Below, piece after piece: positions 1 to 64,000 of a stretch of DNA of 64,000 nucleotides (the stretch's first letter is position 1; every line of letters begins with the position of its first letter). Source of the DNA: Rudaeicoccus suwonensis. GTDB lineage: Bacteria > Actinomycetota > Actinomycetes > Actinomycetales > Dermatophilaceae. Both the position numbers and the translations under genes were made by a program. The stretch lies in assembly GCF_007829035.1 (NCBI RefSeq), contig NZ_VIVQ01000001.1:1054001-1118000 (forward strand). The letters are read 5' to 3'. The notes beneath the pieces were generated by a model. The model made no database searches and was not told where the DNA came from. It worked only from the letters and a program-made list of their open reading frames with translations.

Positions 1-85
1 CCGAGAAAATCCGTAGCGCACTGCACCCGGAGAAGTCCTGTCTCGCCGTCAGCGGACGCGGGTTCGATTCCCGCCACCTCCACCA
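1..85 (+). ncRNA. ssrA: tmRNA, 3' end only (partial)
   Basis: The window opens inside an RNA whose last bases form a T-arm (GGGTTCGATTCCC) followed by an acceptor strand ending CTCCACCA, with the terminal CCA encoded. No tRNA cloverleaf precedes it: upstream lies pseudoknot-like GC-rich sequence. This is the usual 3' end of actinobacterial ssrA, the RNA that rescues stalled ribosomes and tags their products. The tag-coding part lies outside the window. A tRNA 3' half is the alternative, but the D and anticodon arms are missing. Confidence 0.8.
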
Positions 86-225
86 CCATGAAGGTCACGT
101 CACCACTGCGCAGTTCCTCTCGCCGCTTCGACCGACCCCTCAGCCGTGTCGCTGCCGATGACCCGGCGACCTCGTTCGTCCCGTTGACGGACCCCGGTGT
201 GCGAGATCGTGCCGGACCCACTTGA

Positions 226-1746
226 ATGACCTGTATGAGTGCGCAGCCTTCCGTGTCCAACTCCATCACCGTCCGCCTCGAACTACCGGGTCGAGCAACT
301 GCCGTCAGTGAGCTGACCGGCTGTGTAGAGCGAGCTGGTGGTCTGGTCACCGCACTCGACATCACCCACTCCGACAACGACCGCCTGCGCGTCGACGTCA
401 CCGCTGCCGCGCGCGACGGTGACCACGCCGACGAGCTCGTCGAGGCGATGCGCGGCGTCGAAGGCGTCGAGATCCACAAGGTCAGCGACCGCACGTTCCT
501 GGCTCACCTCGGCGGAAAGCTGAAGATCGAGTCCAAGGTGCCGATCCGCAACCGCGACGACCTGTCGATGGTCTACACGCCCGGTGTCGCGCGGGTGTGC
601 CTCGCCATCGCCGAGAACCCCGAGGACGCTCGCCGGTTGACCATCAAGCGCAACACCGTTGCGGTGGTCACCGATGGCACAGCGGTGCTCGGTCTCGGTG
701 ATATCGGCCCGCTCGCCGCGATGCCGGTGATGGAGGGCAAGGCGGCTTTGTTCAAGCGCTTCGCCGACATCGACGCCTTCCCGATCTGCTTGGACACCAA
801 GGATTCCGACGAGATCGTGCGCACGGTCAAGGCGATCGCTCCGGTCTTCGCGGGCATCAACCTGGAGGACATCTCAGCGCCGCGATGCTTCGAGATCGAG
901 CGACGGTTGCGCGACGAACTCGACATCCCCGTGTTCCACGACGACCAGCACGGGACGGCCATCGTCGTGCTGGCGGCGCTGCGCAACGCGTTGCGCGTTG
1001 TCGGCAAGGAATTGAAGGACGTGCGCATCGTGCAGTCCGGTGCCGGCGCCGCCGGCACGGCGATCGCGCTGCTGTTGTTGCACGCTGGGGCGACGGACGT
1101 CGTGCTCGCCGACATCAACGGTGTGGTGCGGTCCGACCGCTCCGACATCGCCGGCGACCCCGACTCAGATCTGGCGAAGATCGCCAAGCACACCAACCCG
1201 CGTCAGGTGTCAGGCACGCTCAAGGACGCGTTGCGCGACGCTGACGTCTTCATCGGAGTGTCGGCACCGAACATCCTGACCGGCGACGACATCGCCACGA
1301 TGGCTGACGATGCGATCGTCTTCGCCCTGGCCAATCCGACCCCTGAGGTCGACCCCGCGGATGCCGCCAAGCACGCCAAGGTCGTCGCCACCGGTCGCAG
1401 CGACTTCGCCAACCAGATCAACAATGTGCTGGTCTTCCCGGGCGTCTTCCGGGGACTGCTCGATGCTGCCGCCAGCAAGGTGACCCTGGATGTGATGCTC
1501 GCTGCGTCTCGGGCGCTGTCGGACGTGGTGAAACCGGAAGAGCTGAACCCGGCATACATCGTGCCGAGCGTCTTTCAGCCGGACGTCTCCAAGGTCGTCG
1601 CCGCGGCGGTCGCCGAGGCGGTCAAGGCCGATCAGACCGAGAACGCCCACTCCGGAGCCGCCGGCGCGGACAATGCGCACCTGGCGACCGACGACGATGC
1701 CACTGCGGTGGCGGATGACCAGGCCGGAACTCGCTCGGGGGAGTGA
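226..1746 (+). CDS. NAD(P)-dependent malic enzyme with N-terminal ACT domain
   Basis: Catalyses oxidative decarboxylation of malate to pyruvate in the cytoplasm. Residues about 1-90 look like an ACT regulatory domain, the arrangement seen in many actinobacterial malic enzymes. The malic N domain follows: YTPGVARVC with the catalytic Tyr near 117, [10 protein letters not shown] with the catalytic Lys near 172, and metal ligands in NLED (about 214-215) and FHDDQHGT (about 239-240). The dinucleotide fold carries GAGAAGTA near 272-279. The last 40 residues are an acidic, Ala-rich tail. Two ATGs nine bases apart (226 and 235) are both possible starts and neither has a good ribosome site. Specificity for NAD or NADP cannot be read from this sequence. 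Confidence 0.93.
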
Positions 1747-1757
1747 GCGCTCGCGAC

Positions 1758-2072
1758 TCACGTCGGGCGAGTCGCCTTGCGACTGCCGGCACGTATGGCG
1801 GAGTTCACCGCCGTGCGCGCGACCGGTCCGAGATCGTCAACCGCGTCGATGATTGCTGCGAGGCTGGTCAGGGCTGCCAGTGCTTCGTCGGCTCCGGCGT
1901 GATCGACGCCGTCGTACAGCTGCAGTCCGATGAAGCCGGCGCTGACCGCCCGGGCGAGTGCGCCGGGGTCGGCGATCTCGGCAAGGACGTTGCCGGCCAG
2001 GATGCGGCGCAAGGCCGCCTCGATCTCGGTGATCCAGCACGACATGGCGTAACCCGTTGCGGCTGCTGGCAA
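1758..2072 (-). pseudogene. TetR-family regulator, C-terminal remnant
   Basis: About 100 codons encode a TetR-type C-terminal ligand domain only (IGLQLYDGVDHAGADEAL, then a helix ending DDLGPVARTAV). TetR regulators of this type are near 190-210 residues with a helix-turn-helix in the first 50. No HTH is readable upstream in any frame, and the first 15 residues of the open frame do not look like protein from this family. I read it as a gene that has lost its N-terminal half. A short stand-alone protein is possible but less likely. It converges on the malic enzyme gene. Confidence 0.6.
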
Positions 2073-2457
2073 TTCGTCATATTGTGCGCCGGTAGCAATT
2101 GCTCTTGGTGTCGCTCATGGTGAGGCCACGCTAGTCGGGTTTCGAGCGGTGCGAGTCCGACCATCGGCCGCCGCCGTGATGGCACGGCGGCGGCCGCGCA
2201 CGATGTGACTGCGACCAAGGTCACGCCCGCGTCGGGCGCCTCGTTTTGCGGTGTATGCCGTGCCTCCGATACCGTGAAGCGTTGTATTCACGCGATCTTG
2301 CGTTCATTTCTGACACATTTCCTTTTGTGGGCGCCGAGATCTTTCTGGCGCCGAGGACCCCTCGAGCAGCGCGACACCCGCCCGATTTCGCGGGTCATGT
2401 CTGCGTGCCTCGAGACGGGTGGGGCGTCCAGCCGACCACGAAAGAGGACAGTCTCCA
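2073..2457. other. Gene-free leader upstream of the DEAD-box helicase
   Basis: No credible coding region. It holds a 10-bp perfect palindrome AGCAATTGCT (2094-2103), a strong hairpin (2165-2196) and then a relatively AT-rich stretch near 2280-2330 that probably contains the helicase promoter and a long untranslated leader. Long leaders are common for cold-induced RNA helicases; that link is inference. Confidence 0.4.
2165..2196. other. Perfect 14-bp GC hairpin with ATGG loop
   Basis: CGGCCGCCGCCGTG, loop ATGG, then its exact reverse complement. No U-tract follows on either strand, so it is not a classical intrinsic terminator. It could still block transcription between the TetR remnant and the helicase, or form part of the helicase leader. 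Confidence 0.55.
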
Positions 2458-4980
2458 ATGACCAAGAAGAGCACCGACGGCAAGAAGGCGCGCTGGACGC
2501 GAGCCCAGAAAGTCGAGGCCAAGCGCACCCCCGCCCGCAAGCAGGCGGCCGGTCGCGACGAGCGCCCGGCGCGTCGGGACGACCGCACCGGTGGTGCACG
2601 CACCGGCTCCGACAACCGTGGCTTCGACCGCGGATCAGACCGTGGCTCAAGCCGATTCGGCGATCGATCGGGCAGGTACGACTCGCGCGACGGTGGCCAT
2701 CGCAACGGTGATCGCGCCGACGGTGGTTTCGAGCGTCGTGACGACCGTGGTGGCAACCGCGGGTACCAGCGTCGTGACGACAACCAGGGTGGTCGTGGTT
2801 ACGAGCGCCGCGATGACCGTGGCGGCAGCCGTGGTTACCAGGACCGCAACGACCGTGGTGGTTACCAGCGTCGTGACGACAACCAGGGTGGTCGTGGTTA
2901 CGAGCGCCGTGACGACCGTGGTGGTTACCAGCGGCGTGACGACAACCAGGGTGGTCGTGGTTACCAGGACCGCAACGACCGTGGTGGTTACCAGCGTCGT
3001 GACGACAACCAGGGCGGTCGCGGTTACGAGCGCCGTGACGACCGTGGTGGTTACCAGCGGCGTGACGACCGTGGCGGCAGCCGTGGTTACCAGGACCGCA
3101 ACGACCGTGGTGGTTACCAGCGTCGTGACGACCGTGGCGGCAGCCGTGGTTACCAGGACCGCAACGACCGTGGTGGTTACCAGCGTCGTGACGACAACCA
3201 GGGCGGTCGCAGTTACGACCGTCGGGATAACCGTGGCCATGAACGTGGTGATGACCGCGGCGATCAACGTCGAGACAACCGCGTGCCCGCCTTCCGGCGC
3301 GACGACCGTCGTCAAGATGACCGCGCGTTCGACCAGACCGACCAGGCGAACACCATCGATGTCGCCGAACAGACCGAGACCGTGCGTCCCGTCGAAACGC
3401 CGGCAGCAGACAGCACCACCCCGAACACCCATAACACCGAGGACAACATCGTGACCACGCAGGAAGTCGTGGGCGCCGATGCAGCTGCGGCATACACCAC
3501 GGACGACGAGATTGAGACCACGCAGGCGGACGACAACGTGGACGCGCCGACCTTCGCTGACCTCGACCTGCCGGCCTCGTTGGTGGAGCGGCTGGCCCGT
3601 GACGGCATCACCAGCCCGTTCCCGATCCAGGTCGCGACGATTCCCGACGCGCTCGCCGGTCGCGACGTGCTCGGCCGTGGACGCACCGGTTCCGGCAAGA
3701 CGCTGGCGTTCGGACTCCCCGCGCTGACGCGACTCGCTGCCGGCGGCAAAGCCCGCCCGAACCAGCCCCGCGCCATCGTGCTCGTGCCGACCCGTGAACT
3801 CGCGATGCAGGTCAGCGACGCGTTGCAGCCGCTGGTGCACGTCATCGGCCTGCGTCACAAGCTGGTCGCCGGCGGCATGCCGTACGAGCCGCAGCTGTCC
3901 GCCCTCGAACGCGGCGTCGACCTGCTCATCGCGACACCGGGTCGGCTCATCGACCTGATGGAGCGCGGCGCAGCGGACCTGTCCCGTGTGGAGATTGCGG
4001 TGCTGGACGAGGCCGACCACATGGCGGAAATGGGCTTCCTGGAAGCGATTACGCAGATCCTCGACGAAGTGCCGACCGACGGTCAGCGGCTGCTGTTCTC
4101 GGCGACACTGGACCGTGGCATCGACACGGTGGTCGAGAAGTACCTCACCGACCCGGTGGAGCACGCAACCGACGACGGCACCGCGAGCGTCACCACCATG
4201 GCCCACCACGCGTTGCTGATCGAGCCGCGTGACAAGAAGGTCGTCACCGCTCAGGTCGCCAACCGGCCCGGTCGCACTGTCGTGTTCGTGCGCACCAAGC
4301 TCGGTGCCGACCGTGTCGCCGGTGAGCTGCGCGACCAGGGCGTGCTCGCGGCATCGCTGCACGGTGGCCTGAACCAGGGCCAGCGCAACAAGGTGCTCAA
4401 TGCGTTCAAGGACGGCAAGGTGCCGGTTCTTGTTGCGACCGATGTCGCAGCACGCGGCATCCATGTCGACGAGGTCGGCGTCGTGCTGCAGGTGGACCCG
4501 CCGGCCGACCACAAGGACTACCTGCACCGTGCCGGCCGTACGGCGCGCGCGGGCGAGAAGGGCACTGTCGTGACCCTTGCCCTCCCGCACCAGCGCCGCA
4601 CCATGCAGCGACTGCTGGACGACGCCGGTGTCGGTGTGCAGCTCCAGCGGGCGCAGCCGGGTGACGACGTCATCCGCGCCGCCGGTGGCAGCACGCCGGA
4701 GGGCCGGTCCATCTCCGACGACGAACTGCAGCGGATCCTGACGCCGCCGCGCGCCAACCGGGGCGGGCGCTCGTATGGCGATCGTCGCGGCTCACGCGAT
4801 GGTTACCGAGGCGGACGCGGTGGCGGCTACAACGACCGCGGTGGTCGAGGTGGCTACGGCGGCGACCGTGGCGGTCGCGGCGGCTTCAGCCGTGACGGTG
4901 GTGGCGACCGTGGTGGCCGCGGCGGCTACGCCGGTGGTCGTGGCGGCCAGGGCGGCGGACGCCGCTTCGACCGCGACTGA
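2458..4980 (+). CDS. DEAD-box ATP-dependent RNA helicase with long Arg/Gly/Asp-rich flanks
   Basis: Unwinds RNA duplexes; probably acts in ribosome assembly or RNA decay, as DeaD/CsdA/RhlE-type enzymes do. The 840-residue product starts at the ATG preceded by GAAAGAGGA. Residues 1-365 are low-complexity, with repeats built from RRDDNQGGRGY and RNDRGGYQ. The core follows: a Q motif near 365-390, GRTGSGKT near 409, PTRELAMQ, DEAD near 516, SAT near 547, VATDVAARG and HRAGRTAR near 690. The last 75 residues are RGG-rich. Such tails bind RNA and promote condensates in other helicases. The family is usually 450-600 residues, so the N-terminal repeat domain is unusually long. Confidence 0.95.
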   Translation: MTKKSTDGKKARWTRAQKVEAKRTPARKQAAGRDERPARRDDRTGGARTGSDNRGFDRGSDRGSSRFGDRSGRYDSRDGGHRNGDRADGGFERRDDRGGNRGYQRRDDNQGGRGYERRDDRGGSRGYQDRNDRGGYQRRDDNQGGRGYERRDDRGGYQRRDDNQGGRGYQDRNDRGGYQRRDDNQGGRGYERRDDRGGYQRRDDRGGSRGYQDRNDRGGYQRRDDRGGSRGYQDRNDRGGYQRRDDNQGGRSYDRRDNRGHERGDDRGDQRRDNRVPAFRRDDRRQDDRAFDQTDQANTIDVAEQTETVRPVETPAADSTTPNTHNTEDNIVTTQEVVGADAAAAYTTDDEIETTQADDNVDAPTFADLDLPASLVERLARDGITSPFPIQVATIPDALAGRDVLGRGRTGSGKTLAFGLPALTRLAAGGKARPNQPRAIVLVPTRELAMQVSDALQPLVHVIGLRHKLVAGGMPYEPQLSALERGVDLLIATPGRLIDLMERGAADLSRVEIAVLDEADHMAEMGFLEAITQILDEVPTDGQRLLFSATLDRGIDTVVEKYLTDPVEHATDDGTASVTTMAHHALLIEPRDKKVVTAQVANRPGRTVVFVRTKLGADRVAGELRDQGVLAASLHGGLNQGQRNKVLNAFKDGKVPVLVATDVAARGIHVDEVGVVLQVDPPADHKDYLHRAGRTARAGEKGTVVTLALPHQRRTMQRLLDDAGVGVQLQRAQPGDDVIRAAGGSTPEGRSISDDELQRILTPPRANRGGRSYGDRRGSRDGYRGGRGGGYNDRGGRGGYGGDRGGRGGFSRDGGGDRGGRGGYAGGRGGQGGGRRFDRD
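2737..3216 (+). repeat. In-frame tandem repeats inside the helicase gene
   Basis: Nearly identical DNA blocks coding GGYQRRDDNQGGRGY, ERRDDRGG and YQDRNDRGG alternate about a dozen times. Identity is high at the DNA level, so copy number may change by slippage or recombination without shifting the frame. Confidence 0.85.
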
Positions 4981-5012
4981 CCCGGCTTGATCCACGGTGA
5001 GGCCGTTCACCC

Positions 5013-5018
5013 GATAAT
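5013..5018 (+). promoter_or_regulatory. -10 box GATAAT, leaderless start of yqgE-like gene
   Basis: GATAAT lies 6 nt before the GTG at 5025, so transcription would start at the start codon. No convincing -35 element is seen. Confidence 0.5.
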
Positions 5019-5024
5019 GGTCGG

Positions 5025-5594
5025 GTGGACGACCTCACCAGCAAGCTCCTCGTGTCGGTTCCGCGCGAGCGCTCGCTGGTCGACGACCAGGATGTCTTCG
5101 ATCGCAGCGTCGTGCTGGTCCTGCACCACGACGAGGAGGGCGCGCACGGGCTGATCCTCAACCGTCCGCTGTCTGCGGACGTCGACGCAGTCCTGCCGGG
5201 TTGGCAGGAGCACGTGTCGGCCCCGGACCGCTTGTTCCAGGGTGGACCGGTCTCGCTCGACACCGCTCTCGGGCTGGCGTCGATGCCGGGTGATGATGAC
5301 GAAACCCTTGGTGTGCGAAGGATTTTCGGCGGAGTCTGCTTGGTCGATCTCGACGCTCCGCCGCCGGTAGTCGTCCCGATGCTGGCCGCGCTCCGGATCT
5401 ACGCCGGGTACGCCGGCTGGGCCGCGGGCCAGCTCGAAGGCGAGATCGAAGCCGGCTACTGGTTCGTCGTCGATGCCGAGGCGTCGGATCCGTTCAGCGA
5501 CGATCCGGCAGACCTGTGGCAGAACGTGCTGCTGCGGCAACGCTCGGCCTTGGCGTTCGCCGCGAGCTTTCCCGACGACCCGGATCAGAACTGA
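5025..5594 (+). CDS. YqgE/AlgH family protein (UPF0301)
   Basis: A 189-residue cytoplasmic protein of the conserved YqgE/AlgH family, whose biochemical role is unsettled. Family marks: an N-terminal LVSVPR segment, SVVLVLHHDEEGAHGLILNRP near 28-48, FQGGPV near 70, and RIYAGYAGWAAGQLEGEIEAG near 125-145. The length is typical. The start is the GTG at 5025 directly behind a -10 box, so the message is probably leaderless. It is followed by DUF3039 with about 120 bp between, which looks like a separate promoter rather than an operon. Confidence 0.88.
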   Translation: MDDLTSKLLVSVPRERSLVDDQDVFDRSVVLVLHHDEEGAHGLILNRPLSADVDAVLPGWQEHVSAPDRLFQGGPVSLDTALGLASMPGDDDETLGVRRIFGGVCLVDLDAPPPVVVPMLAALRIYAGYAGWAAGQLEGEIEAGYWFVVDAEASDPFSDDPADLWQNVLLRQRSALAFAASFPDDPDQN

Positions 5595-5704
5595 CGACGC
5601 TGTATGCCGCAGGGCGTCGTGGGCCGGGAGCTTTGTGAGTTTGCGACCAGCGCCGGCAGGGCCGGAGGCGCAGCACGGGGCAGAGCCGACAGTTCGCACC
5701 GGCA

Positions 5705-5710
5705 TACACT
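5705..5710 (+). promoter_or_regulatory. -10 box TACACT, leaderless start of DUF3039 gene
   Basis: TACACT ends 8 nt before the ATG at 5719, the spacing expected for a leaderless message. Confidence 0.45.
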
Positions 5711-5718
5711 TCTGGGTC

Positions 5719-6036: not shown

Positions 6037-6114
6037 CGCGCTTCATCGGGTTGATGTGCTGCCTGATACATCACGGGTAGGGCTCGTGTGATCGGGTGCG
6101 GAGCGCCCACGGCT

Positions 6115-6900: not shown

Positions 6901-7092
6901 GTTGAGGGCGATTTGTCGCGTATGTCCAGAAATAATTCGAACACTACAACTTCTCGTCGGGTGCTGAGGAGATCCTCCGGTGCAGGGTTGGCCGCAGGTT
7001 GCGCGGGAGTGCCATTGGGTCGATCCGCCCTAGCACGACGGGGGTGCGATTTCTCACTCCGCCTGGATGAGCGTGCTGTCTCATCGCCTCGT
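6901..7092. other. Intergenic region between fic and the SF2 helicase
   Basis: No coding region that I can support. On the minus strand the fic frame remains open for about 150 nt without ATG or GTG, which may be degraded N-terminal coding sequence. Composition is less GC-rich near 6900-6960. Confidence 0.4.
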
Positions 7093-7098: not shown

Positions 7099-7106
7099 TG
7101 TCCGCG

Positions 7107-8861: not shown

Positions 8862-8868
8862 GCGCCTG

Positions 8869-9519: not shown

Positions 9520-9533
9520 TCAGTGCGCCAGGG

Positions 9534-10010: not shown

Positions 10011-10028
10011 ACAGCACATTGTATGGCG
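10005..10028. repeat. Inverted pair of the CGNCATAC/GTATGNCG octamer
   Basis: CGACATAC and GTATGGCG face each other across 8 bp, overlapping the lrp start codon and its -10 box. One of three such pairs in the window. Confidence 0.7.
10018..10023 (-). promoter_or_regulatory. -10 box TACAAT, leaderless start of lrp gene
   Basis: On the minus strand TACAAT is followed by 7 nt and then the ATG at 10010. It lies within the octamer pair, so a protein bound there would block this promoter. Confidence 0.55.
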
Positions 10029-26137: not shown

Positions 26138-26300
26138 GTGCGGCTCTCACGGGCGGACCGTGTCCGCGATGACCGGTGCGGCTCTCCCGCCCGTGCTGTG
26201 GCCGCGATGACCGGTGCGGCTCTCCCGCCCGTGCTGTGGCCGCGATGACCGGTGCGGCTCTCCCGCCCGTGCTGTGGCCGCGATGACCGGTGCGACTCCC
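26138..26300. repeat. 38-bp tandem repeat block
   Basis: Three exact copies of a 38-bp unit begin at 26167, 26205 and 26243 (unit starts CGATGACCGGTGCGGCTCTC), with diverged partial copies on each side. The unit has no long open frame and no clear hairpin. It lies after the amine operon. Confidence 0.9.
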
Positions 26301-26340: not shown

Positions 26341-26433
26341 GACAGCTGCTGCCAGGTCGACGGAGGGTTAGGACAGCTGCTGCCAGGTCGACGGAGGGTT
26401 AGGACAACTGCTGCCAGGTCGACGGAGGTTAAG
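26341..26433. repeat. 31-bp tandem repeat block reaching the pncB stop codon
   Basis: Three near-exact 31-bp units begin at 26341, 26372 and 26403 (core CAGCTGCTGCCAGGTCGACG). The last one contains the pncB stop codon. An imperfect inverted copy (GACCTGGC) lies at about 26304, so a stem spanning the block is possible. Confidence 0.88.
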
Positions 26434-27760
26434 ACTGGTAGATCGTCGGGATGACCGGCTCACCACGCGACAGCTGTGCTGCGGTCGGCGGCAACTCCGC
26501 ACGCGACGCGGCGTGGCGCTCGCGCGCATCCGCGAGATCGCCGTGGAACACCCGCTCACCGTCCCGGATCAGCGGCACCAGCAGCGTGCGGTCGTCGCCG
26601 TCGTCGACCGGCGGCCGCCCGATGCCGATCAGCTCCGCCTCGGCGACGCCCCGCGAATCCCTCCGCCGCAGAGCGTATTTGCGCCCACCCACCGAAGCCT
26701 TGTCCTTGCTCTTCTTCGCGACCGCCTGCAGTTCGCCGGCGGCATTTTCGCGCGCGACCAGCTTGTAGACCAGGCCGGCTGTCGGCGCACCGGACCCCGT
26801 CACCAGCTGAGTGCCGACGCCATACCCGTCGACCGGGCCTGCCTGCAGCCCCGCGATCGCGAATTCGTCGAGGTCCGAGGTCACCACGATGCGGGTCTTC
26901 GTCGCGCCGAGGCTGTCCAGTTGCGCTCTCACCTCGCGCGCCTGCTGCAGCAGGTCACCCGAATCCAGCCGCACCCCACCGAGTTCCGGCCCGGCGACCT
27001 CGACGGCGAGTGCGACCGCAGTCGGCACGTCATAGGTGTCGACCAGCAATGTCGTCCCGACCCCGAGCGCGTCCACCTGCGACTGGAAGGCCGCGCGCTC
27101 GTCGTCGTGCAGCAGCGTGAACGCGTGAGCCGACGTGCCCGCAGTGGGCACGCCGTAGCGACGCCCGGCCTCCAGGTTCGAAGTGGTCGCAAAGCCCGCG
27201 ACGTATGCCGCACGGGCCGCCGCGACCGCAGCCCACTCATGCGTGCGGCGGGAGCCCATCTCGATGCACGGACGGTCGTCGGCGGCAGCCGTCATACGTG
27301 ACGCGGCAGCAGCGATCGCGCTGTCGTGGTTGAGGATCGACAGCACGAGAGTCTCGAGGACGACCGCCTCGGCGAACGGCGCCTCGACGATCACCAACGG
27401 CGACCCGGGGAAGTAGACCTCGCCCTCGGCATACCCCCAGATGTCGCCGGAGAAGCGGTAGTCCGCCAGCCAGGCCAGCGTCACGTCGTCCACGATCCGT
27501 CGCTCGCGCAGGTCGGCGAGTTCGGCCTCGCCGAAACGGAATCCGGCCAACGCGTCGAGCAGCCGGCCGGTGCCGGCGGTCACCCCGTAGCGTCGGCCGT
27601 CCGGCAACCGCCGGGCGAAGGTCTCGAACACACTCGCCCGCATGGCGGTGCCGTCCCGCAGCGCCGCCTGCAGCATCGTCAGTTCGTACTGGTCGGTCAG
27701 CAGGGAGGTGGCCGCGCGGCCGGCTGCGGCGTCCGTGGTTTCGGGAGTCACAGGCGCCAC
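26429..27760 (-). CDS. pncB: Nicotinate phosphoribosyltransferase
   Basis: Joins nicotinate to PRPP to give nicotinate mononucleotide, with ATP use, in NAD salvage. About 443 residues. LLTDQYELTMLQAAL (about 20-34) is the family's N-terminal signature, EMGSRRTHEWAAV (about 170-182) carries substrate-binding residues and SNLEAGRRYGVPTAGTSAHAF (about 195-216) the region of the catalytic His. VRLDSGDL near 280 binds the PRPP phosphate. The start is GTG 27760; GTG 27751 is equally possible. Only 14 bp separate it from the divergent clpS. PncA, encoded nearby, supplies the nicotinate. Confidence 0.95.
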   Translation of the reverse strand: MAPVTPETTDAAAGRAATSLLTDQYELTMLQAALRDGTAMRASVFETFARRLPDGRRYGVTAGTGRLLDALAGFRFGEAELADLRERRIVDDVTLAWLADYRFSGDIWGYAEGEVYFPGSPLVIVEAPFAEAVVLETLVLSILNHDSAIAAAASRMTAAADDRPCIEMGSRRTHEWAAVAAARAAYVAGFATTSNLEAGRRYGVPTAGTSAHAFTLLHDDERAAFQSQVDALGVGTTLLVDTYDVPTAVALAVEVAGPELGGVRLDSGDLLQQAREVRAQLDSLGATKTRIVVTSDLDEFAIAGLQAGPVDGYGVGTQLVTGSGAPTAGLVYKLVARENAAGELQAVAKKSKDKASVGGRKYALRRRDSRGVAEAELIGIGRPPVDDGDDRTLLVPLIRDGERVFHGDLADARERHAASRAELPPTAAQLSRGEPVIPTIYQS

Positions 27761-30990: not shown

Positions 30991-30998
30991 CCCCGCCG

Positions 30999-31356
30999 CA
31001 CGAGATGTCGGCGTTTGTCGGCGCCTGGATGCCGGACGCGCACGAGATGTCGGCATTTGTCGTCGCCTGGATGCCGGACGCACACGAGATGTCGGCATTT
31101 GTCGTCGCCTGGACGCCGGACACGCACGAGATGTCGGCATTGGTCGCTTCCGCTGGGGTGGTTCCGACGAAAAGGGACATCTCGTGGCAGGAGTTTGCGA
31201 TAAGGATCGACATCTCGTGGCATCGGCGTGCTGTTGTGGCGTCAGGCTCCGTGCTTCTGTTGGCCGCACGCACACGGGATGTCGGCATTGGTCGTCGCCT
31301 GGATGCCGGACGCGCACGAGATGTCGGCATTGGTCGCTCGCAGCCTGCCTGACCCT
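30999..31356. repeat. 42-bp repeat cluster with core CACGAGATGTCG
   Basis: Units spaced exactly 42 bp start at 30999, 31041, 31083 and 31125, and again at 31273 and 31315. They are contiguous, with no unique spacers. Two inverted cores (GACATCTCGTG) lie at 31176-31186 and 31209-31219. Open frames across the block translate to repetitive, implausible proteins. The same core recurs at 52.7-53.3 kb. Nothing recognisable lies from 31357 to 31500. Confidence 0.88.
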
Positions 31357-31760: not shown

Positions 31761-31982
31761 CGCGCCCGGGGCGCGGTCACTCGTGCTCTGGTGGCGTTGC
31801 GCGCGACATGGCCGGACTCGTGTCGCGGTGGCGGCCCTTCGTGTGGCGGTGAATTGGCGGGACGATGGCAGTCCGTCGATCGGACGTGCGCGATTCGAGC
31901 GCCATACAATCGGCTTCGACGACCGTGATGATCGCGAACCGCCCCGGCCCTGACTCCGGCGCCCCGGCTGAAATGAGGACCC

Positions 31983-32798: not shown

Positions 32799-32839
32799 AC
32801 GCACCAGATCGACGCCGGACGGGCCGGTATGCCGCAGCC

Positions 32840-40764: not shown

Positions 40765-40954
40765 CGAGCTGTATGACGAGCACTTGTCCTCCCGCTACTG
40801 GCGCGAATGTGCCTGATAATCAATGCAATTGGTGAAATTTCATAGAGTGCCAACGTTGATTCCGAGAAGGAAGTCCCGACTGCGGGCTGTTGTCGTAACC
40901 CGGTGAAATCGCCCAAACGCGTTGTCGTTGCGGCGAATTGATCTGCGTGGCAGG

Positions 40955-48639: not shown

Positions 48640-49098
48640 TCAGCTGCAGTGTCCGGCGTTCTGCGGGATCTGACCCGCCGCCGCAGCGAAGGCGGCGAGT
48701 CCCCACGCGGCGTACTTCGTGGGGATGAGCACCTCGATGGCGGGGGAGCGCCCGAAGGTCACGAAACGTGTGCCGTCATCCAGGGGTGAACTGACCCAGT
48801 CGATGCCGTTGGTCTGCAGACATCCGGCCGCGGTCGGTGCGGGAGTTCCGACGCCGCAGCGGGCGATGATGGCCGGGTTGCCCCACGCCCGCACGGTGGG
48901 CGAGGAGACCGACACCTTCCGTGCAGTCTGGCTCGACACCGTGACCGGCCAATGTGCAGAAGCCTTGGCGCACAACGGATTCGAGGAGTAAGCGGCGACC
49001 GACACCTTCACGGTGCCGGCGCCCGAACCGCACCCGGAGAGCGCCAGCGCCATACCTGGTATGACGGCCGCTGCCGCGGCGCGCCTGCCGCGACGCAC
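48640..49098 (-). CDS. DUF3515 lipoprotein
   Basis: A 152-residue secreted lipoprotein of the DUF3515 family, function unknown. After RRGRR and a hydrophobic stretch (AAAAAVIPGMALALSGC) the lipobox LSGC gives a lipidated Cys near 25. The mature part has four further Cys, probably in disulfides, and the family segment ARCGVGTPAPTAAGCLQTNGI and RSPAIEVLIPTKY near 130. The start GTG 49098 overlaps the stop of the Lrp-like gene (TAGTG). This gene usually lies near thiL and ddl in actinobacteria. Confidence 0.88.
   Translation of the reverse strand: MRRGRRAAAAAVIPGMALALSGCGSGAGTVKVSVAAYSSNPLCAKASAHWPVTVSSQTARKVSVSSPTVRAWGNPAIIARCGVGTPAPTAAGCLQTNGIDWVSSPLDDGTRFVTFGRSPAIEVLIPTKYAAWGLAAFAAAAGQIPQNAGHCS
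49048..49066. repeat. Inverted pair of the CGNCATAC/GTATGNCG octamer in the DUF3515 signal peptide
   Basis: CGCCATAC, 3 bp, GTATGACG. It spans codons for VIPGMA and forces a rare ATA isoleucine codon. Confidence 0.7.
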
Positions 49099-52698: not shown

Positions 52699-52736
52699 CC
52701 GCGCGTGCGGCGCGATGCGCCGCGAGGTGTCGATGT

Positions 52737-53290
52737 TTGTCGCGTCCGGTCTGGCCGCTCCCCGCGAGATGTCGGTTTTGGCCGCTTCTGGTCGGTCCGC
52801 CCGTCACGAGGTGTCGTTGTTTGCCGGATTCGGAGGTGGGTTCCGACCAGGAATGACATCTCGTGGGGCCAGGGGGGCGGTTTCGGCGAAAGGTGACATC
52901 TCGCGCGATCTGGATGGTGCGTTGCGCCGCGAGGTGTGGTCGGTTGCCGTGTCCGGTGTGGCCGCTCCCTGCGAGATGTCGTTGGTTGTCGTGTCCGGTC
53001 TGGGCGCTCCCCGCGAGGTGTCGGTTTTGGCCGCTTCTGGTCGGTCCGCCCGTCACGAGGTGTCGTTGTTTGCCGGATTCGGAGGTGGGTTCCGACCAGG
53101 AGTGACATCTCGTGGGGGCAGGGGGGGGCGGTTTCGGCGAAAGGTGACATCTCGCGCGATCTGGATGGTGCGTTGCGCCGCGAGGTGTGGTCGGTTTTGG
53201 CCGCTTCTGGTCGGTCCGCCCGGCACGAGATGTCGTTTCTTGCCGCTTCTGGTCGGTCCGCCCGGCACGAGATGTCGTTTCTTGCCGCGT
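52737..53290. repeat. Second repeat cluster with core CACGAGATGTCG, including a large internal duplication
   Basis: Cores (C)ACGAGATGTCG or CGAGGTGTCG alternate with inverted GACATCTCG(T/C)G cores at about 52855, 52892, 53103 and 53146. A segment of about 175 bp at 52771-52945 recurs at 53020-53196, differing mainly in the length of a G-run. Two further short units end at about 53290. Open frames across it are repetitive shadows. No transposase is present. Confidence 0.88.
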
Positions 53291-53342
53291 TCGCTGCGCG
53301 TGCGCCGCGTCCCTGAGCGTGCAACGGACACTCGGCATACGA

Positions 53343-58115: not shown

Positions 58116-58138
58116 GCGCTCCGTCATACAGTTCGGTC

Positions 58139-58630
58139 ATGAGCGGCGATCCCCGCCGGTGCGTCTGCCCCGGTTCGTACGACCCCATCACCAACGGTCA
58201 CCTCGACGTCATCACCCGGGCGAGCCGGCTGTATGACGAGGTCGTGGTCGCGGTGCTGCACAATCCCGCCAAACAAGGGACGTTCACTCCCGCCGAACGG
58301 GTCGACCTCATCGAACGGTCCTGCAGCCAGCTGCCCAATGTGCGCGCACAGGCGTATGGCGACCGGCTCATCGTCGACGTGTGCCGCGAGGTCGGTGCCG
58401 CAGTGCTGGTCAAGGGGATCCGCGATGCCACCGACATCGGCTACGAGTGGCCGATGGCGCTGATGAACCGGCAGATGGCCGACATCGAGACGCTCATGCT
58501 GCCGGGGGATCCGCGCTTCGGGCACTACTCGAGTTCACTGATCCGGTTGATCGCCGGGCATGGCGCCGACGTCGCCGAGATGGTGCCGCCGCCGGTGCTG
58601 CAGCCACTGCTGGAGCGGGTGCGCAGCTGA
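58139..58630 (+). CDS. coaD: Phosphopantetheine adenylyltransferase
   Basis: Penultimate step of coenzyme A synthesis. The 163-residue nucleotidyltransferase has CPGSYDPITNGHLDVITRA (positions about 8-26) with the HxGH-like TNGH, KGIRDATDIGYEWPMALMNRQ (about 90-110) and the late SSSLIR (about 128-133). ATG 58139 gives the usual length; GTG 58112, overlapping the rsmD stop, would add nine residues before it. Confidence 0.95.
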   Translation: MSGDPRRCVCPGSYDPITNGHLDVITRASRLYDEVVVAVLHNPAKQGTFTPAERVDLIERSCSQLPNVRAQAYGDRLIVDVCREVGAAVLVKGIRDATDIGYEWPMALMNRQMADIETLMLPGDPRFGHYSSSLIRLIAGHGADVAEMVPPPVLQPLLERVRS

Positions 58631-58700
58631 GTCACCCTCGCGACGCGCGCGGCTCGCGCGTGCTGCGGACGGGTGGCATCGACGGGCGAAGCGGCTCGGT

Positions 58701-58730
58701 TTGGGGGAGTGGGCACCCACCCGGTAACCT
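58701..58730 (+). promoter_or_regulatory. Possible promoter of the yceD-rpmF-rnc-mutM operon
   Basis: TTGGGG (58701-58706), 18 bp, TAACCT (58725-58730), about 60 nt upstream of the yceD-like start. Confidence 0.4.
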
Positions 58731-58789
58731 TGGTCCTCGGTCTTGTCGCTTCTGACTGGTCCGAGCCGTACCTTCGTAGAACCCACACC

Positions 58790-59371
58790 ATGATGAACAC
58801 TGATCCTCGCCGCCCGTTAGTCCTGGACACCAGGGAACTCGGTCGGCGACCCGGTTTGATGTTGGAACGGGAACTCGAAGCTGCAGCACCCCAGGATTTC
58901 GGCACCGATGTGATCGCAGTGCCGCAGGGCCGGCCCCTGTGGCTCGACCTGCGACTGGAGTCGGTGATGGAAGGGGTGCTGATCTCGGGCTCGGTTCGGG
59001 CTACGGCGACCGGTGCCTGCGTGCGGTGCCTGGAACCCGTCGAAGAACCCTTCGACGTGGATTTTCAGGAACTGTTCGCCTACGCCGATCGGGCAGCTCA
59101 CCACCACGAGGTGGCGAGTGAGGACGAAGAAGACGTGCACGAGCTGGACGGCGACCTCGCCGATCTTGAGCCCGTGCTGCGGGACGCAGTGGTGCCCACC
59201 CTGCCGTTCCAGCCGGTGTGTCGGGTGGACTGCCCCGGGTTGTGCTCCGAATGCGGAGCCCGCCTGGCAGACGACCCGTCGCACCACCATGAAGTGATCG
59301 ACCCCCGGTGGTCGGCGCTGGCCGGTATGGCGAGCACCGATGACACCGATACCGACGAGAGAAGGAACTGA
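58790..59371 (+). CDS. YceD/DUF177 family protein
   Basis: A 193-residue protein of the YceD family, which in many bacteria is encoded with rpmF and is linked to 23S rRNA maturation. PLVLDTRELGRRPG (about 8-21), TGACVRCLEPVEEPF (about 75-89) and CRVDCPGLCSECGARL (about 145-160) hold the conserved Cys pairs. The C terminus is acidic. ATG 58790 and 58793 are adjacent. rpmF follows after one base, so expression is linked to ribosomal protein production. Confidence 0.92.
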   Translation: MMNTDPRRPLVLDTRELGRRPGLMLERELEAAAPQDFGTDVIAVPQGRPLWLDLRLESVMEGVLISGSVRATATGACVRCLEPVEEPFDVDFQELFAYADRAAHHHEVASEDEEDVHELDGDLADLEPVLRDAVVPTLPFQPVCRVDCPGLCSECGARLADDPSHHHEVIDPRWSALAGMASTDDTDTDERRN

Positions 59372-59372
59372 C

Positions 59373-59567
59373 GTGGCTGTCCCGAAGCGGAAGACGTCGC
59401 GCTCCAACACGCGCTCGCGCCGTGCGAACTGGAAGGCCACGCCTGTTGCGCTGGCCACCTGCCCGGCGTGTGACGCGCCGAAGCAGTCGCACCTGGCGTG
59501 CCCGTCCTGCGGCACCTACAAGGACCGCCACTACAGCGCGGCGGAGCGCACCGAGCACCAGGGCTGA
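59373..59567 (+). CDS. rpmF: 50S ribosomal protein L32
   Basis: A 64-residue large-subunit protein. [17 protein letters not shown] (2-18) is the conserved start and [20 protein letters not shown] (about 31-50) carries four Cys for zinc. GTG start with GAAGGA upstream. Confidence 0.97.
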
Positions 59568-59584
59568 GCAGCCCACCGCCGGAC

Positions 59585-60331
59585 GTGAGCTCCTCCCGAC
59601 GTTCGCGTCGTGACGCCGAGCAGCGACCCGTCGCCGATCTTGCCCAGATCCTGCAGCAGCAGTCCGGGACGGTCATCGACGAGTCGCTGCTTTCGCGTGC
59701 CCTGACGCACCGTTCCTACGCCTACGAGAACGGTGGCATCCCGCACAACGAGCGCCAGGAGTTCCTGGGTGACTCGGTGCTGGGTGTGGTTGTCACCGAC
59801 CACCTCTACCACCAGCACCCGGACCTCGCCGAGGGTCAACTGGCCAAGTTCCGGGCTGCCATCGTCAACTCTCGCGCCCTCGCCGGTGTCGCGCGAGAAC
59901 TCGACCTCGGCAGCTTCGTCATGCTCGGTCGGGGCGAGACCACGACCGGTGGTCGTGGCAAGGACTCCATCCTGGCCGACACGATGGAAGCCGTCATCGG
60001 CACGGTCTACCTGTGCGGCGGCATCCCCGCGGCGACAGCGCTGATCCACAACGTGATGGACCCGGTCATCGCCGCCGCCGCTGAGCTCGGCGCCGGCCTC
60101 GACTGGAAGACCTCGCTGCAGGAGCTCACGTCGACGATGGCGCTGGGTGTGCCCAGCTATCAGATCGAGGAGTCCGGGCCCGATCACGACAAGAGCTTCT
60201 CGGCCCGCGTGATCGTGGGCGAGCAGGAGCTCGGCTCCGGCAGCGGCCGCAACAAGAAGGCCGCCGAGCAGCAGGCCGCGGAGGTCGCCTGGCGCGCACT
60301 CAAGTCGCGCGCCGATGCAGCCGGTGCCTGA
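59585..60331 (+). CDS. rnc: Ribonuclease III
   Basis: Cuts double-stranded RNA, including pre-rRNA. The 248-residue enzyme has the signature [13 protein letters not shown] (about 55-67) with the catalytic Glu and Asp, [12 protein letters not shown] (about 132-143) with the second acidic pair, and a C-terminal double-stranded RNA-binding domain ([10 protein letters not shown] near 173, ending [19 protein letters not shown]). GTG 59585 is the likely start; the frame upstream reads through rpmF. It overlaps mutM by eight bases. Confidence 0.95.
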
Positions 60332-61184
60332 GCTTCCCGAAGTCGAGGTCGTCCGCAGAGGCGTCGCCGCCCATGTCGTCGGTCGCCGGTTCGGGGCCGT
60401 CGAGTTGTATGGCGAGCGGGTCGCCCGCCGCCACGAGTCCGGTCCCGCCGACCTGGCCGCACGCCTCGCGCAGCGGGAGGTGCTCGCCGCGGGGCGCCGT
60501 GGCAAATACCTGTGGCTGGTGCTGGACGGTGACGAGGCGCTCGTCATACATCTCGGCATGAGCGGGCAACTGCTCGTCGAATCCGCCGAACTGCCAAGGG
60601 AAAAGCACGCCCATGCGATCTTCGAACTTCCCGGCGAGATGCAGCTGCGATTCGTGGATCAGCGCACCTTCGGCGGTCTGCAACTGGTGGAACTGGTGGC
60701 CGATCGCTTCGGAGACAGCATGGTGCCGGCGGTGATCACCCATATCGCGCCCGATCCGTTGGAGGACGCCTTCGATCAACCGGCGGTGGTGCGCGCGATG
60801 CGCAAGCGGCATACAGCGCTCAAACGGGCGCTGCTCGACCAGTCGCTGGTCTCGGGGATCGGCAACATCTACGCCGACGAGGCGTTGTGGCGGACGCCGG
60901 TGCACGGCGAGCGATTCACCGACCGGCTGACCGCGCGGATCATCGCCGAGACGCTCGACCATGCGGCCGAGGTGATGCGTGAAGCGCTCGGGCAAGGCGG
61001 CACGAGTTTCGATGCGCTCTATGTGAACGTCAATGGTGCGAGTGGCTACTTCGACCGGTCGCTGAACGCCTATGGCCAGCAGGGTCGGCCGTGCCGCCGG
61101 TGCGGCACGCTCATGGTGCGGGAAGCCTTCATGAATCGCTCCTCACACAGTTGCCCGCACTGCCAGCCGCGACCGCGTCGGTAG
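60324..61184 (+). CDS. mutM: Formamidopyrimidine-DNA glycosylase
   Basis: Removes oxidised purines such as 8-oxoguanine. The start must be GTG 60324, because the enzyme uses the second residue, Pro, as nucleophile ([12 protein letters not shown]). A frame from ATG 60315 would bury it. The 286-residue protein has the Lys in [10 protein letters not shown] (about 57-66), LGMSGQLL and the H2TH helix [14 protein letters not shown] (about 176-189). It also has a C-terminal zinc finger CRRCGTLM and HSCPHCQ. An ATA codon lies within CGTCATAC. Confidence 0.96.
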
Positions 61185-61480
61185 GCCCGACAGTCAATTC
61201 AGGCAGCCTCAGGATGGAGCAGGCGAACACCCGCCCTGGCCGCGATGACCGCAGCGTGGGCCTGCGGGCGGTTGGCTCGGATGACGATTACTGACGAGTA
61301 TCGCCGCCAGGCGTGTCACTGATCGTCATCTCATCCGGCGCCCTGATGCGCGTGTGGCCGCAGTTACCCATGCGCTGCTCGTGGCGGAGTGCTCCGACGC
61401 CTTCGACATGGGCCGACTCTTGAACCGTGCGGCTGGTCGTCGACCCGAGGATCAGCCGCACTCGCAGCTGACCGCTGCAT

Positions 61481-61486
61481 TAGGTT
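61481..61486 (+). promoter_or_regulatory. -10 box TAGGTT, leaderless start of the M3 peptidase
   Basis: TAGGTT ends 8 nt before GTG 61495. The stretch 61185-61480 has no gene that I can support; the peptidase frame is open through part of it. Confidence 0.45.
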
Positions 61487-61494
61487 TGGTGGTC

Positions 61495-63408
61495 GTGACC
61501 GACCTCAAAGCACAGACCCTGCCCGCAGCCGACGAAACACTGACGTGGGTGGAGGAGACCTGCGGCGGTTATCTGACCCAGGCCCGCGGGCTCGCGGATG
61601 CGTTGCGCGCCGATCCGCCGACCGAGCCGTTGGCGGTGCTGCGGGCGTGGAACGACATCCAGGTGCTGCTCGGCAACGCTGCCGCCATCGCCGGGTTGTA
61701 CTCCTCGGTCGATCCGGCTGCGCAGGTGCGGGATGCAGCCGACGCGGCGATGCAGCCGCTGGACGCCTTCGGCACCGAACTCGGCATGGACGCAAAGCTT
61801 TTCGAGATCATCAGCGCGGTTGACGCGAGCGCGCTGGACGCCGATGCTCAGCGCTTGTTGGAGCGCACACTGCGCGACTTCCGCCGCAGCGGAGTCGATC
61901 GTGACGACGTGACCCGCGCCCGGCTCGCCGAGTTGGCTGAGGCGGAACTGAAGGCATCCCAGGAGCACAACAAGAACATCCGCGAGGGCGTGCGCAGCAT
62001 CCACGTCACCCCGGACGCCCTGGCCGGTATGCCGCAGGACTGGCTCGACGCTCACCCTGCCGATGCGGACGGCCTCGTGACCGTGACCACCGACTACCCG
62101 GACTCGATCCCGCTGGTGACCTTCTGCAGCGACCACGGCACCCGGCGGGTGCTCACCCGCGAACGACTCAACGTCGCGTGGCCGGCGAACGACGCAGTGC
62201 TGCAGCGGCTGCTGGCGTTGCGCGCGGAACACGCCAAGTTGCTCGGCTACGACAGTTGGGCCGACTACGACGCCGAGGTCAAGATGATCGGATCCGCCTC
62301 TGCCATCGGCGAATTCATCGACAAGATCTGTGACGCGGCGACCGACAGTGCGCTGCGCGACAAGCAGGTGCTGCTCGACCGGTTGCGGCGCGACGTGCCC
62401 GACGCGACCGACATCGACTCACCCGACCTGAGCTACTACTCCGAGCTGGTGCGCAAGGAGGACTACTCGGTCGACGCGCAGCTCGTGCGCACGTACTTCG
62501 ACTTCACCAAGGTGCGGCAGGGACTGCTGGATGTCACCGGCCGGCTGTTCGGGCTCCGCTTCCGCGCCGCCCATGTTGTCACCTGGCATGAGGACGTTGC
62601 GGCATACGACGTGCTTCGGGACGACGTCGTCATCGGCCGCATCTACCTCGACCTGCATCCGCGCGAGGGCAAGTACAAGCACGCCGCGCAGTTCGATCTG
62701 CGCTCCGGCGTGCGCGGCCGCCAGTTGCCCGAAGGCGTGCTGGTCTGCAACTTCAGCCGCGGTCTCATGGAGCATTCGGACGTGGTGACGTTGTTCCACG
62801 AGTTCGGCCACCTGATCCACCATGTGCTGGGCGGTGACCAGGAGTGGGTGCGCTTCTCGGGGGTCGCCACCGAGTGGGATTTCGTCGAGGCGCCCAGCCA
62901 GATGCTGGAGGAATGGGCCTGGGACGCCGATGTGTTGGCGACCTTCGCGATCAATGCGGACGGCGAGACGATTCCCGCGGATCTGGTCGAGCGGATGCGT
63001 CGGGCGGACGACTTCGGCAAGGGATTTCAGGCGCGGACCCAGATGTTCTATGCCGCGCTGTCACTGCAGATCCACCTCGAATCACACGACGACCTGACCG
63101 ATGTCGTGCGCGAGCTGCAGGGGCGCTACTCGGTCTTCCCGTATGTCGAGGACACCCATTTCCATTGCGCCTTCGGGCATTTGGACGGTTACAGCTCCGG
63201 CTACTACACCTACATGTGGTCGCTCGTGATCGCCAAGGACATGTTCAGCGCCTTTGACGACGCCGACCTGTTCGCGCCGGCCGTGGCGGAGCGCTATCGC
63301 GACTGCGTGCTGGTGCAGGGCGGGCGCAAGGATGCCGCGGATCTCGTCGCGGACTTCCTGGGGCGTAGCTACACCTTCGACGCCTACGCCCGCTGGCTCG
63401 CCGAGTGA
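61495..63408 (+). CDS. M3-family zinc oligopeptidase
   Basis: A 637-residue cytoplasmic thimet/oligopeptidase-type metallopeptidase that trims short peptides. HEFGHLIHH (about 435-443) provides two zinc His and the catalytic Glu, and the third ligand is the Glu in EAPSQMLEEWAWD (about 466-478). TYMWSLVIAKDMF (about 576-588) has the substrate-binding Tyr region. The frame extends 47 codons further upstream. GTG 61495 is chosen because a -10 box lies 8 nt before it and the resulting length is normal for the family. Confidence 0.92.
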   Translation: MTDLKAQTLPAADETLTWVEETCGGYLTQARGLADALRADPPTEPLAVLRAWNDIQVLLGNAAAIAGLYSSVDPAAQVRDAADAAMQPLDAFGTELGMDAKLFEIISAVDASALDADAQRLLERTLRDFRRSGVDRDDVTRARLAELAEAELKASQEHNKNIREGVRSIHVTPDALAGMPQDWLDAHPADADGLVTVTTDYPDSIPLVTFCSDHGTRRVLTRERLNVAWPANDAVLQRLLALRAEHAKLLGYDSWADYDAEVKMIGSASAIGEFIDKICDAATDSALRDKQVLLDRLRRDVPDATDIDSPDLSYYSELVRKEDYSVDAQLVRTYFDFTKVRQGLLDVTGRLFGLRFRAAHVVTWHEDVAAYDVLRDDVVIGRIYLDLHPREGKYKHAAQFDLRSGVRGRQLPEGVLVCNFSRGLMEHSDVVTLFHEFGHLIHHVLGGDQEWVRFSGVATEWDFVEAPSQMLEEWAWDADVLATFAINADGETIPADLVERMRRADDFGKGFQARTQMFYAALSLQIHLESHDDLTDVVRELQGRYSVFPYVEDTHFHCAFGHLDGYSSGYYTYMWSLVIAKDMFSAFDDADLFAPAVAERYRDCVLVQGGRKDAADLVADFLGRSYTFDAYARWLAE

Positions 63409-63448
63409 TCGATCCCGCGCCGTGCGGTCTGTCAACAAGGAGATGACG

Positions 63449-64000
63449 ATGCAGTTCCCCACCCGCCACGACGGCAGCTGCGGCACCACGCTGCTGCTCG
63501 ACGACTCCGACCGCTCGAAGCTGCCGGTGGTGCGAGCCGTCAACGCCGTCGGACTCGACGACTCCGCGGCCGCATTGGCCGCACTGCGTCCGGGATGTGC
63601 TCTGCTGCAAGAGCATTCGGCGCCGACCTTTCTACGACCCGGTCTGTCAGGACACCGGCTCTCCGGCGCCGATGGTGCCGGCGGCTCGTGGAGCACGAAG
63701 TTCGAAACCACCGACGTCACGTATGACGATGCCGTTCTGCGGATCAGCGCTCGTGACGACCTGGCCGGCCTCGCGGTCGAGACGACGGTCGAGGCGCTGA
63801 CCGGAGGAGCGCTGCGGATCCGGCACCGCCTCACCAACGAGGGTGCTGCGGCATACGTGCTGGATGCCCTGGAGGTGAGCCTGCCGCTGCCGGACGATCA
63901 CGTGGAGCTGCTCGATTTCACCGGTCGTCACGAGCGCGAGCGGTCTCCGCAGCGGCACCCGTTGGCCGACGGCGTGTGGCTGCGCGAATCCCGCACGGGT
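63449..64000 (+). CDS. Alpha-galactosidase, GH36 family (N-terminal part; runs off the window)
   Basis: An open frame of 184 codons without a stop continues past the window end. The N-terminal beta-supersandwich domain of GH36 alpha-galactosidases is recognisable from LEVSLPLPDDHVELLDFTGR and HERERSPQRHPLADGVWLRE (about 160-179), the typical GRW-x-RERxPQRxP-type segment. The catalytic barrel lies outside. AAGGAG ends 6 nt before ATG 63449, which supports that start over the in-frame ATG 63443. It would release alpha-linked galactose from oligosaccharides. Confidence 0.85.
   Translation, partial: MQFPTRHDGSCGTTLLLDDSDRSKLPVVRAVNAVGLDDSAAALAALRPGCALLQEHSAPTFLRPGLSGHRLSGADGAGGSWSTKFETTDVTYDDAVLRISARDDLAGLAVETTVEALTGGALRIRHRLTNEGAAAYVLDALEVSLPLPDDHVELLDFTGRHERERSPQRHPLADGVWLRESRTG

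Follow-up and report, generated by a model that had tools for sequence, protein, structure and literature searches.

The 64,000-nucleotide stretch of DNA analyzed here (the window) raises the question of why a single short word, GTATGNCG, recurs throughout it on both strands and what, if anything, reads it. The window belongs to a 3.83-Mb genome assigned by GTDB to the Dermatophilaceae, with Flexivirga as the nearest named relative.

Frequency of the octamer in the window and the genome

An earlier note on this DNA had counted by hand 81 and 62 occurrences of GTATG on the plus and minus strands and, among them, 67 and 54 copies of the octamer. A pattern scan gave identical figures (121 copies in total; GC content, 67.0%; Table 1). 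The note's further description was also borne out: all four bases occur at the free position N (C, 48; G, 26; A, 25; T, 22), the copies are found in all six gene frames, though unevenly (sense, 39/14/5; antisense, 23/21/5), the seven intergenic copies that it listed are all real, within 3 bases, and the tandem array at 2.76 to 3.28 kb, one of the repeat clusters said to lack the word, holds none. In total, 14 of the 121 copies lie outside called genes. The word is slightly denser in the window (1 per 530 bp) than in the genome on average (1 per 634 bp).

Codon usage and protein sequence are ruled out as the cause of this excess by shuffles that preserve both and predict only about one-tenth of the real count. 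Window coding sequences contain 58 sense and 49 antisense copies, compared with 6.8 and 3.5 expected from synonymous-codon shuffling, and the largest total among 200 shuffles was 23; across 484 kb of the genome, 721 copies were seen and 77 were expected. The density is equal in coding (1.69/kb) and intergenic (1.70/kb) DNA. A third-order Markov model of the window predicts 6.2 copies of GTATGCCG on both strands together; 48 are present. Related words show no comparable excess: one-mismatch neighbors occur at 0.2 to 1.8 times expectation, and the core is strict, with weak preferences in the flanks. Genome-wide, there are 3,053 plus-strand and 2,982 minus-strand copies (reversed-word control, 611 and 607). 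GTATGNCG is therefore a short, non-palindromic word that occurs on both strands at a density like that of the DNA uptake sequences (DUS) of Neisseriaceae and far above codon-aware expectation.

Table 1. Positions of GTATGNCG copies in the window, with selected copies outside called genes
Feature	Position	Strand	Source
GTATGNCG starts, part 1	1793, 2253, 4773, 5602, 6675, 7463, 7775, 9102, 10021, 10598, 12151, 12299, 12817, 13280, 13800, 14366, 14528, 14937, 15176, 16739, 17945, 18005	+	pattern scan
GTATGNCG starts, part 2	20339, 20629, 22367, 22640, 22829, 23248, 25444, 25651, 27203, 27894, 28998, 30230, 30552, 32827, 33598, 34545, 37489, 39090, 40344, 40771, 43759, 44288	+	pattern scan
GTATGNCG starts, part 3	45523, 46150, 47208, 49059, 50779, 50806, 51493, 51637, 53759, 53832, 54495, 55944, 56760, 56957, 57692, 58058, 58231, 58354, 59325, 60407, 62027, 63141, 63721	+	pattern scan
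GTATGNCG lowest coordinates, part 1	1550, 3488, 5700, 7388, 7688, 9333, 10005, 13311, 13595, 13736, 15232, 15292, 16613, 17661, 19358, 22161, 23725, 24102, 24375, 24868, 26818, 27290, 27427, 28985, 30503, 30776, 31900	-	pattern scan
GTATGNCG lowest coordinates, part 2	34622, 36717, 37156, 37801, 42264, 43417, 43532, 45543, 46544, 47365, 48222, 49048, 50257, 51781, 53333, 53949, 54509, 54935, 55220, 55877, 57066, 57901, 58122, 60542, 60807, 62600, 63849	-	pattern scan
Intergenic GTATGCCG	2253..2260	+	
GTATGCCG outside called genes	5602..5609	+	
Intergenic GTATGGCG	10021..10028	+	
Intergenic copy, reads CGCCATAC on +	31900..31907	-	
Intergenic GTATGCCG	32827..32834	+	
Intergenic GTATGACG	40771..40778	+	
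Close opposite-orientation pair (49048-, 49059+), outside called genes	49048..49066	both	
Intergenic copy, reads CGGCATAC on +	53333..53340	-	

Family distribution, dialects, and spacing

Clear evidence of the motif came from 19 of the 36 Dermatophilaceae genera sampled and from no genome among the 22 that represent the order's other families. Its dialects are single-letter changes between genera, with switching at homologous sites. In a LeuS tree, the host genome (G000) and G022 are sisters; G022 carries 6,107 copies of GTACGNCG (3,027 and 3,080 on the two strands; reversed control, 389 and 366), and at 51 homologous G000 sites it shows GTACGNCG 16 times and GTATGNCG twice. Two sister genera each contain approximately 3,900 copies of GGATGCCG (G025, 1,977/1,972 versus 140/149 for the reversed control; G015, 1,966/1,850 versus 224/168). 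Codon shuffles further support the dialects GAATGNCG in G011 (32 versus 4.5 expected) and GTATGCG in G019 (47 versus 8.3). A possible GGACGNCG dialect in other families (G036 and G039) is approximately 1.8-fold enriched, no more than other GC-rich context words are there.

Within the host genome, copies are spread evenly, with slight under-dispersion (variance/mean of 0.75 in 2-kb bins). In the 44 20-kb segments read, we detected no strand bias or replication polarity and no regional change in density, except at one IS-flanked defense island (L117; HmaA/HmaB defense genes, an SNF2 helicase, and IS21- and IS256-type transposases), which has 2 copies per 20 kb compared with approximately 34 expected. 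An rRNA operon has none.

Over the 884 kb (of 3.83 Mb) covered by the spacing analysis, neighboring copies tend to alternate in orientation (844 opposite versus 591 same; P = 3e-11), because copies on the same strand avoid each other below approximately 400 bp; opposite-strand copies show no mutual avoidance. The mean same-strand gap is approximately 1.1 kb, and genomes with other dialects agree on the same-strand avoidance. Close inverted pairs are not in excess (57 opposite pairs at <50 bp versus 62 expected), which rules out a role as transcription terminators. GTATGNCG is thus a genome-wide, family-restricted, dialect-forming, and orientation-aware motif.

Candidate readers of the motif

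The earlier note had likened the word to DNA uptake sequences. Of the readings available, this analogy is the best, and it is partly supported; we give a probability of roughly 0.52 to GTATGNCG being a DNA-uptake-sequence-like self-recognition tag of Dermatophilaceae. It gains from the dialects, homologous-site switching, family restriction, near-absence from the island, and lack of polarity, as well as from a set of genes of which the note had named comEA and comEC as a lead: the host genome encodes two Tad clusters, ComEC, and a ComEA that combines SLBB and HhH domains. Against it, motif-less genera have the same genes, so no gene found tracks the motif, and their presence or absence does not discriminate these genera; the tad and comEC neighborhoods likewise revealed neither a gene that tracks the motif nor a candidate receptor. 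To our knowledge, such tags have so far come only from Gram-negative families (Neisseriaceae and Pasteurellaceae); we know of none in monoderm bacteria, and a literature search found no report.

Under the uptake-tag reading, a wall- or surface-exposed DNA receptor of the ComEA/ComEC and double Tad (Flp) pilus machinery would favor tagged DNA; recombined fragments would therefore carry tags more often than by chance, and the tag would be driven to high density wherever recombination reaches. If receptor specificity drifted in a lineage, the same drive would convert the sites to a new dialect one letter at a time, and if specificity were lost, sites would decay. The orientation-specific spacing suggests a one-directional reader: acting one way from an asymmetric motif, it would require separate coverage of each strand. 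Same-strand avoidance is not a textbook uptake-sequence trait, because tag orientation makes no difference to uptake in Haemophilus influenzae (PMC1939737). If the word is an uptake tag, its spacing is new quantitative evidence on the way in which a reader handles such an asymmetric signal.

A distinctly less probable reading is a directional, strand-specific genome mark other than an uptake sequence, whose reader would need one copy per strand approximately every kilobase and whose specificity would drift between genera, rewriting thousands of sites. Unlikely, and somewhat more so, is a signal resembling Chi that a helicase-nuclease of the AdnAB/AddAB type would read during double-strand-break resection. 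Break ends would each need a site in one orientation, so that each strand would be covered separately, which fits the orientation-specific spacing on both strands; the depletion of GTATGNCG in the mobile island also agrees. However, there is no replication polarity, unlike for Chi in Escherichia coli, and an essential repair signal would not readily be lost so often or change its dialect from genus to genus. RecC, the known Chi reader of RecBCD, is missing from the host genome (no PF04257 match). Most motif-rich genomes also lack RecC, several motif-less genomes encode it, and RecBCD-Chi itself is therefore rejected.

Slightly less likely again is a methylation-linked iterated motif like HIP1, in which an orphan methyltransferase would mark the word, mark-biased repair would create and maintain copies, and dialects would follow methyltransferase changes. 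HIP1 and alternate HIPs do occur in step with methyltransferases, at densities of up to about one site per kilobase (PMC4390886), near the per-strand density here, but they are palindromic, and GTATGNCG is asymmetric. Our methyltransferase search comprised PF02384, PF00145, and PF01555; PF00145 (C5-cytosine) and PF01555 have no match in the host genome, and none of the three has one in G006 or G034, two nearly complete genomes rich in the motif. For the modification alternative of the earlier note, these three common families are thus not required, and their occurrence does not match motif presence. Directed repair from a single neighbor word is also rejected, since neighbors are expected only 9 to 160 times each and most are not depleted, and such conversion cannot supply the approximately 640 extra copies.

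Binding sites for a protein that structures the chromosome, such as a nucleoid or segregation protein, appear no likelier than a methylation motif. The even, slightly under-dispersed spread would suit such a protein; repeated loss inside one family and the lack of polarity or regional density change outside the island argue against it, and the nucleoid-protein version raised in the earlier note fares poorly because simple binding does not predict avoidance confined to the same strand. Finally, an artefact of composition, codon pairs, or mutation is highly improbable. Depletion of the likely decay product GTATGNTG (3 versus 16.6 expected) could be cited in its favor, but codon shuffles and intergenic density contradict it, and the antisense copies, the spacing by orientation, and the homologous sites that switched in the sister genus also speak against it.

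If GTATGNCG is an uptake tag, it would be the first known to us outside Neisseriaceae and Pasteurellaceae and the first in monoderms, and it would mean that DNA self-recognition arose independently in bacteria that transform by means of Tad pili; the dialect map, with sister genera one letter apart, would be a natural experiment for finding the receptor. If it is something else, a dense, dialect-forming, strand-aware mark without a known reader would be stranger still.

Comparison with known systems

Chi (RecBCD/AddAB) resembles GTATGNCG as a dispersed asymmetric word whose orientation matters, but differs in that the present host lacks RecC and that the motif has no replication polarity and shows dialects and losses inside one family. 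The HIP1 and alternate HIP words of cyanobacteria are likewise hugely iterated, and near-absent in some members, and in a few, other words take their place (PMC4390886); they are palindromic and tied to orphan methyltransferases, whereas GTATGNCG is neither palindromic nor tied to the three families searched. Natural transformation of Micrococcus luteus depends on comEA/comEC together with two tad clusters (PMC4322843); our host has the full set. A search for the term found no mention of an uptake sequence in two M. luteus papers (PMC4322843 and PMC8467076).

The uptake signal sequences (USS) of Pasteurellaceae are evenly spaced and lack chromosomal orientation bias (PMC1939737). GTATGNCG shares both features, together with a strict core and weak flanking preference, but is a different word in a different phylum, and its same-strand avoidance contrasts with orientation-blind uptake in H. 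influenzae. Compared with DUS, the hosts here are monoderm actinobacteria with Tad pili in place of a type IVa pilus, and GTATGNCG is denser (1 per 634 bp), has no excess of close inverted pairs, shows orientation-specific spacing, and has a putative uptake role and receptor. DUS (receptor, ComP) is like it in being a short asymmetric word with thousands of copies on both strands. DUS are atypical in mobile elements (PMC7371117), as the tag is nearly absent from one island here, and DUS dialects differ by one or a few letters inside one family (PMC3630211), much as those of Dermatophilaceae do.

Abundance, spacing, and orientation of GTATGNCG

A pattern scan of the window (GC content, 67.0%) found 67 copies of GTATGNCG on the plus strand and 54 on the minus strand, matching the hand count of the earlier note. 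The whole Rudaeicoccus suwonensis genome (G000; 3,827,835 bases in 7 contigs) contains 3,053 + 2,982 copies, or one per 634 bp, compared with 611 + 607 for the reversed word. When synonymous codons were permuted within called genes, leaving proteins and codon usage unchanged (codon shuffle), 6.8 sense and 3.5 antisense copies were expected in the window genes, where 58 and 49 occur; 484 kb of G000 holds 721 copies versus 77 expected. As previously claimed, copies also lie between genes, and N can be any base (A 368, C 583, G 288, and T 221 among 1,460 copies). Copies are as dense between genes (1.70/kb) as within coding DNA (1.69/kb). The flanks of intergenic copies show weaker preferences, namely, A at -2, scarce A at -1, and G 3 bases past the core. 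GTATGNTG, a likely product of C-to-T decay, is the most depleted one-mismatch neighbor (3 versus 16.6 expected in 426 kb of G000 coding sequence).

Density is even: with one island left out, 20-kb segments of G000 contain 18 to 44 copies each (variance/mean, 0.87). Within segments, the two strands are more evenly matched than chance would give (chi-square, 18.4; 43 df; lower-tail P = 0.0004) and thus reveal no replication polarity. Adjacent copies are more often in opposite than in the same orientation (844 versus 591; P = 3e-11); label permutation gave a mean of 727 opposite neighbors (SD, 19), and 846 were seen. Neighbors alternate because same-strand pairs are depleted below ~400 bp (<50 bp, 26 versus 62 expected; 300 to 400 bp, 72 versus 124); opposite-strand pair counts are close to expectation. 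Eight control words checked in G000 all lack the opposite-neighbor excess. The excess implies that any reader of GTATGNCG treats the two orientations as non-interchangeable.

Distribution and dialects

LeuS of G000 is 78% identical to that of Flexivirga, and the matches that follow include Ornithinimicrobium and Nostocoides; the organism is therefore placed in GTDB Dermatophilaceae, on its Dermacoccaceae-like branch. GTATGNCG is clear in 19 of 36 Dermatophilaceae genomes (one per genus), including these three genera. Among 22 genomes of the order's other families, not one carries it clearly. Positive and negative genera are intermixed on the LeuS tree, which fits an ancestral family trait that was repeatedly lost or changed.

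Several seemingly negative genomes carry a one-letter variant (dialect) instead: GTACGNCG in the sister genus G022 (3,027/3,080; reversed control, 389/366) and GGATGCCG in the sister pair G015 (1,966/1,850; 224/168) and G025 (1,977/1,972; 140/149). Under the codon shuffle, G011 has both GAATGNCG (32 versus 4.5 expected) and GTATGNCG (19 versus 4.3), and G019 has GTATGCG (47 versus 8.3). In short stretches of G006, G016, G020, G021, G024, G029, G030, G031, and Nostocoides, N is almost always C. Opposite neighbors also predominate in G026 (55 versus 24), whose LeuS is identical to that of Flexivirga meconopsidis Q11, in G022 for GTACGNCG (79 versus 45), and in G025 for GGATGCCG (93 versus 45); the excess is weak in G019 (33 versus 18), and G003, G010, and G011 lean likewise, short of significance.

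At 51 aligned homologous positions with GTATGNCG in G000, G022 shows GTACGNCG at 16 and GTATGNCG at 2, versus GTACGNCG at 19 of 240 sites in genomes without that dialect (G008, G009, G018, and G025); sites were therefore changed to the new dialect in place. Between same-dialect genera, GTATGNCG sites turn over and are partly retained (G003, 25/71; G010, 15/45; G026, 22/59; ordinary aligned words, 0.19, 0.14, and 0.24, respectively).

In other families of the order, G055 contains GGATGCCG at 774/774 versus 97/87 for the reversed control, about twice the density of other outgroups; this may be a dialect beyond Dermatophilaceae, as judged from raw counts against the reversed word. GGACGNCG reaches ~1.8 times codon-shuffle expectation in G036 (385 versus 212) and G039 (295 versus 160), where other GC-rich words are raised to a similar degree.

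Regions poor in the octamer, and tandem arrays

Gaps of >3.8 kb fall in one rRNA operon, in one island, and in two otherwise unremarkable stretches where GC is somewhat reduced. The island, L117, holds 2 copies in 20 kb, and its Hma-type defense genes adjoin IS21- and IS256-type elements. The earlier remark that repeats lack the octamer holds for the array within the helicase gene.

Positions of the mobile/defense island (G000) and of tandem arrays (window)
Feature	Position	Content or context
L117	C1:2150001-2170000	HmaA helicase and HmaB adenine methylase defense proteins; SNF2 helicase, DpdE/DrmD-like; IS21-type IstA/IstB pair; Mutator-type (IS256) transposase
27/36/63-bp units (GTGGTTACCAG...)	2764-3283	In ORF 2419-4980, N-terminal part, DEAD-box helicase gene
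38-bp array, 4.2 copies, 93%	26138-26298	Between called genes
31-bp array, 3.1 copies, 95%	26341-26435	Between called genes; adjoins 38-bp array
42-bp units, two sets 22 kb apart	30997-31146; 52720-53288	Common core like CGAGRTGTCG

Uptake tags and alternative readings

Known uptake tags have a strict asymmetric core, occur in thousands of copies on both strands without chromosomal bias, are atypical in mobile DNA, and form dialects inside one family (PMC3630211, PMC7371117, PMC1939737). Of the competence genes that the earlier note proposed looking for, G000 encodes ComEC and ComEA (SLBB plus HhH); it also has two Tad clusters (one tadA-tadB-tadC-tadE in order and a second tadA-B-C set). By analogy, these properties and genes favor an uptake tag as the most likely mechanism (probability, roughly 0.52), in which a reader would prefer tagged DNA during uptake and so provide the drive. 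Observed directly are the word itself, its distribution and dialects, the change of sites in place, and the spacing. The uptake reading is weakest in that the same machinery occurs in relatives lacking the motif; specificity would therefore have to reside in a variable receptor.

An AdnAB-type, Chi-like signal is an unlikely alternative; RecBCD-Chi itself is ruled out in G000, where RecC is missing. A methylation-linked process like that of HIP1, the iterated cyanobacterial motif, is improbable: HIPs are palindromic and track methyltransferases (PMC4390886), whereas PF02384, PF00145, and PF01555 were not found in the GTATGNCG-rich G006 and G034. Binding sites of a nucleoid protein, improbable too, would leave the same-strand avoidance unexplained. 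No single neighbor word is numerous enough to supply the GTATGNCG excess by conversion.

Our search, with subscription papers and preprints outside it, found no report of an uptake sequence in Actinobacteria or of the GTATGNCG word. As regards the uptake-tag reading, transformation of Micrococcus luteus requires both of its tad clusters (PMC4322843), and G000 likewise has two such gene clusters. Membership among the DUS and USS of Neisseriaceae and Pasteurellaceae would hinge on uptake; in the sequence features tested, GTATGNCG resembles them.
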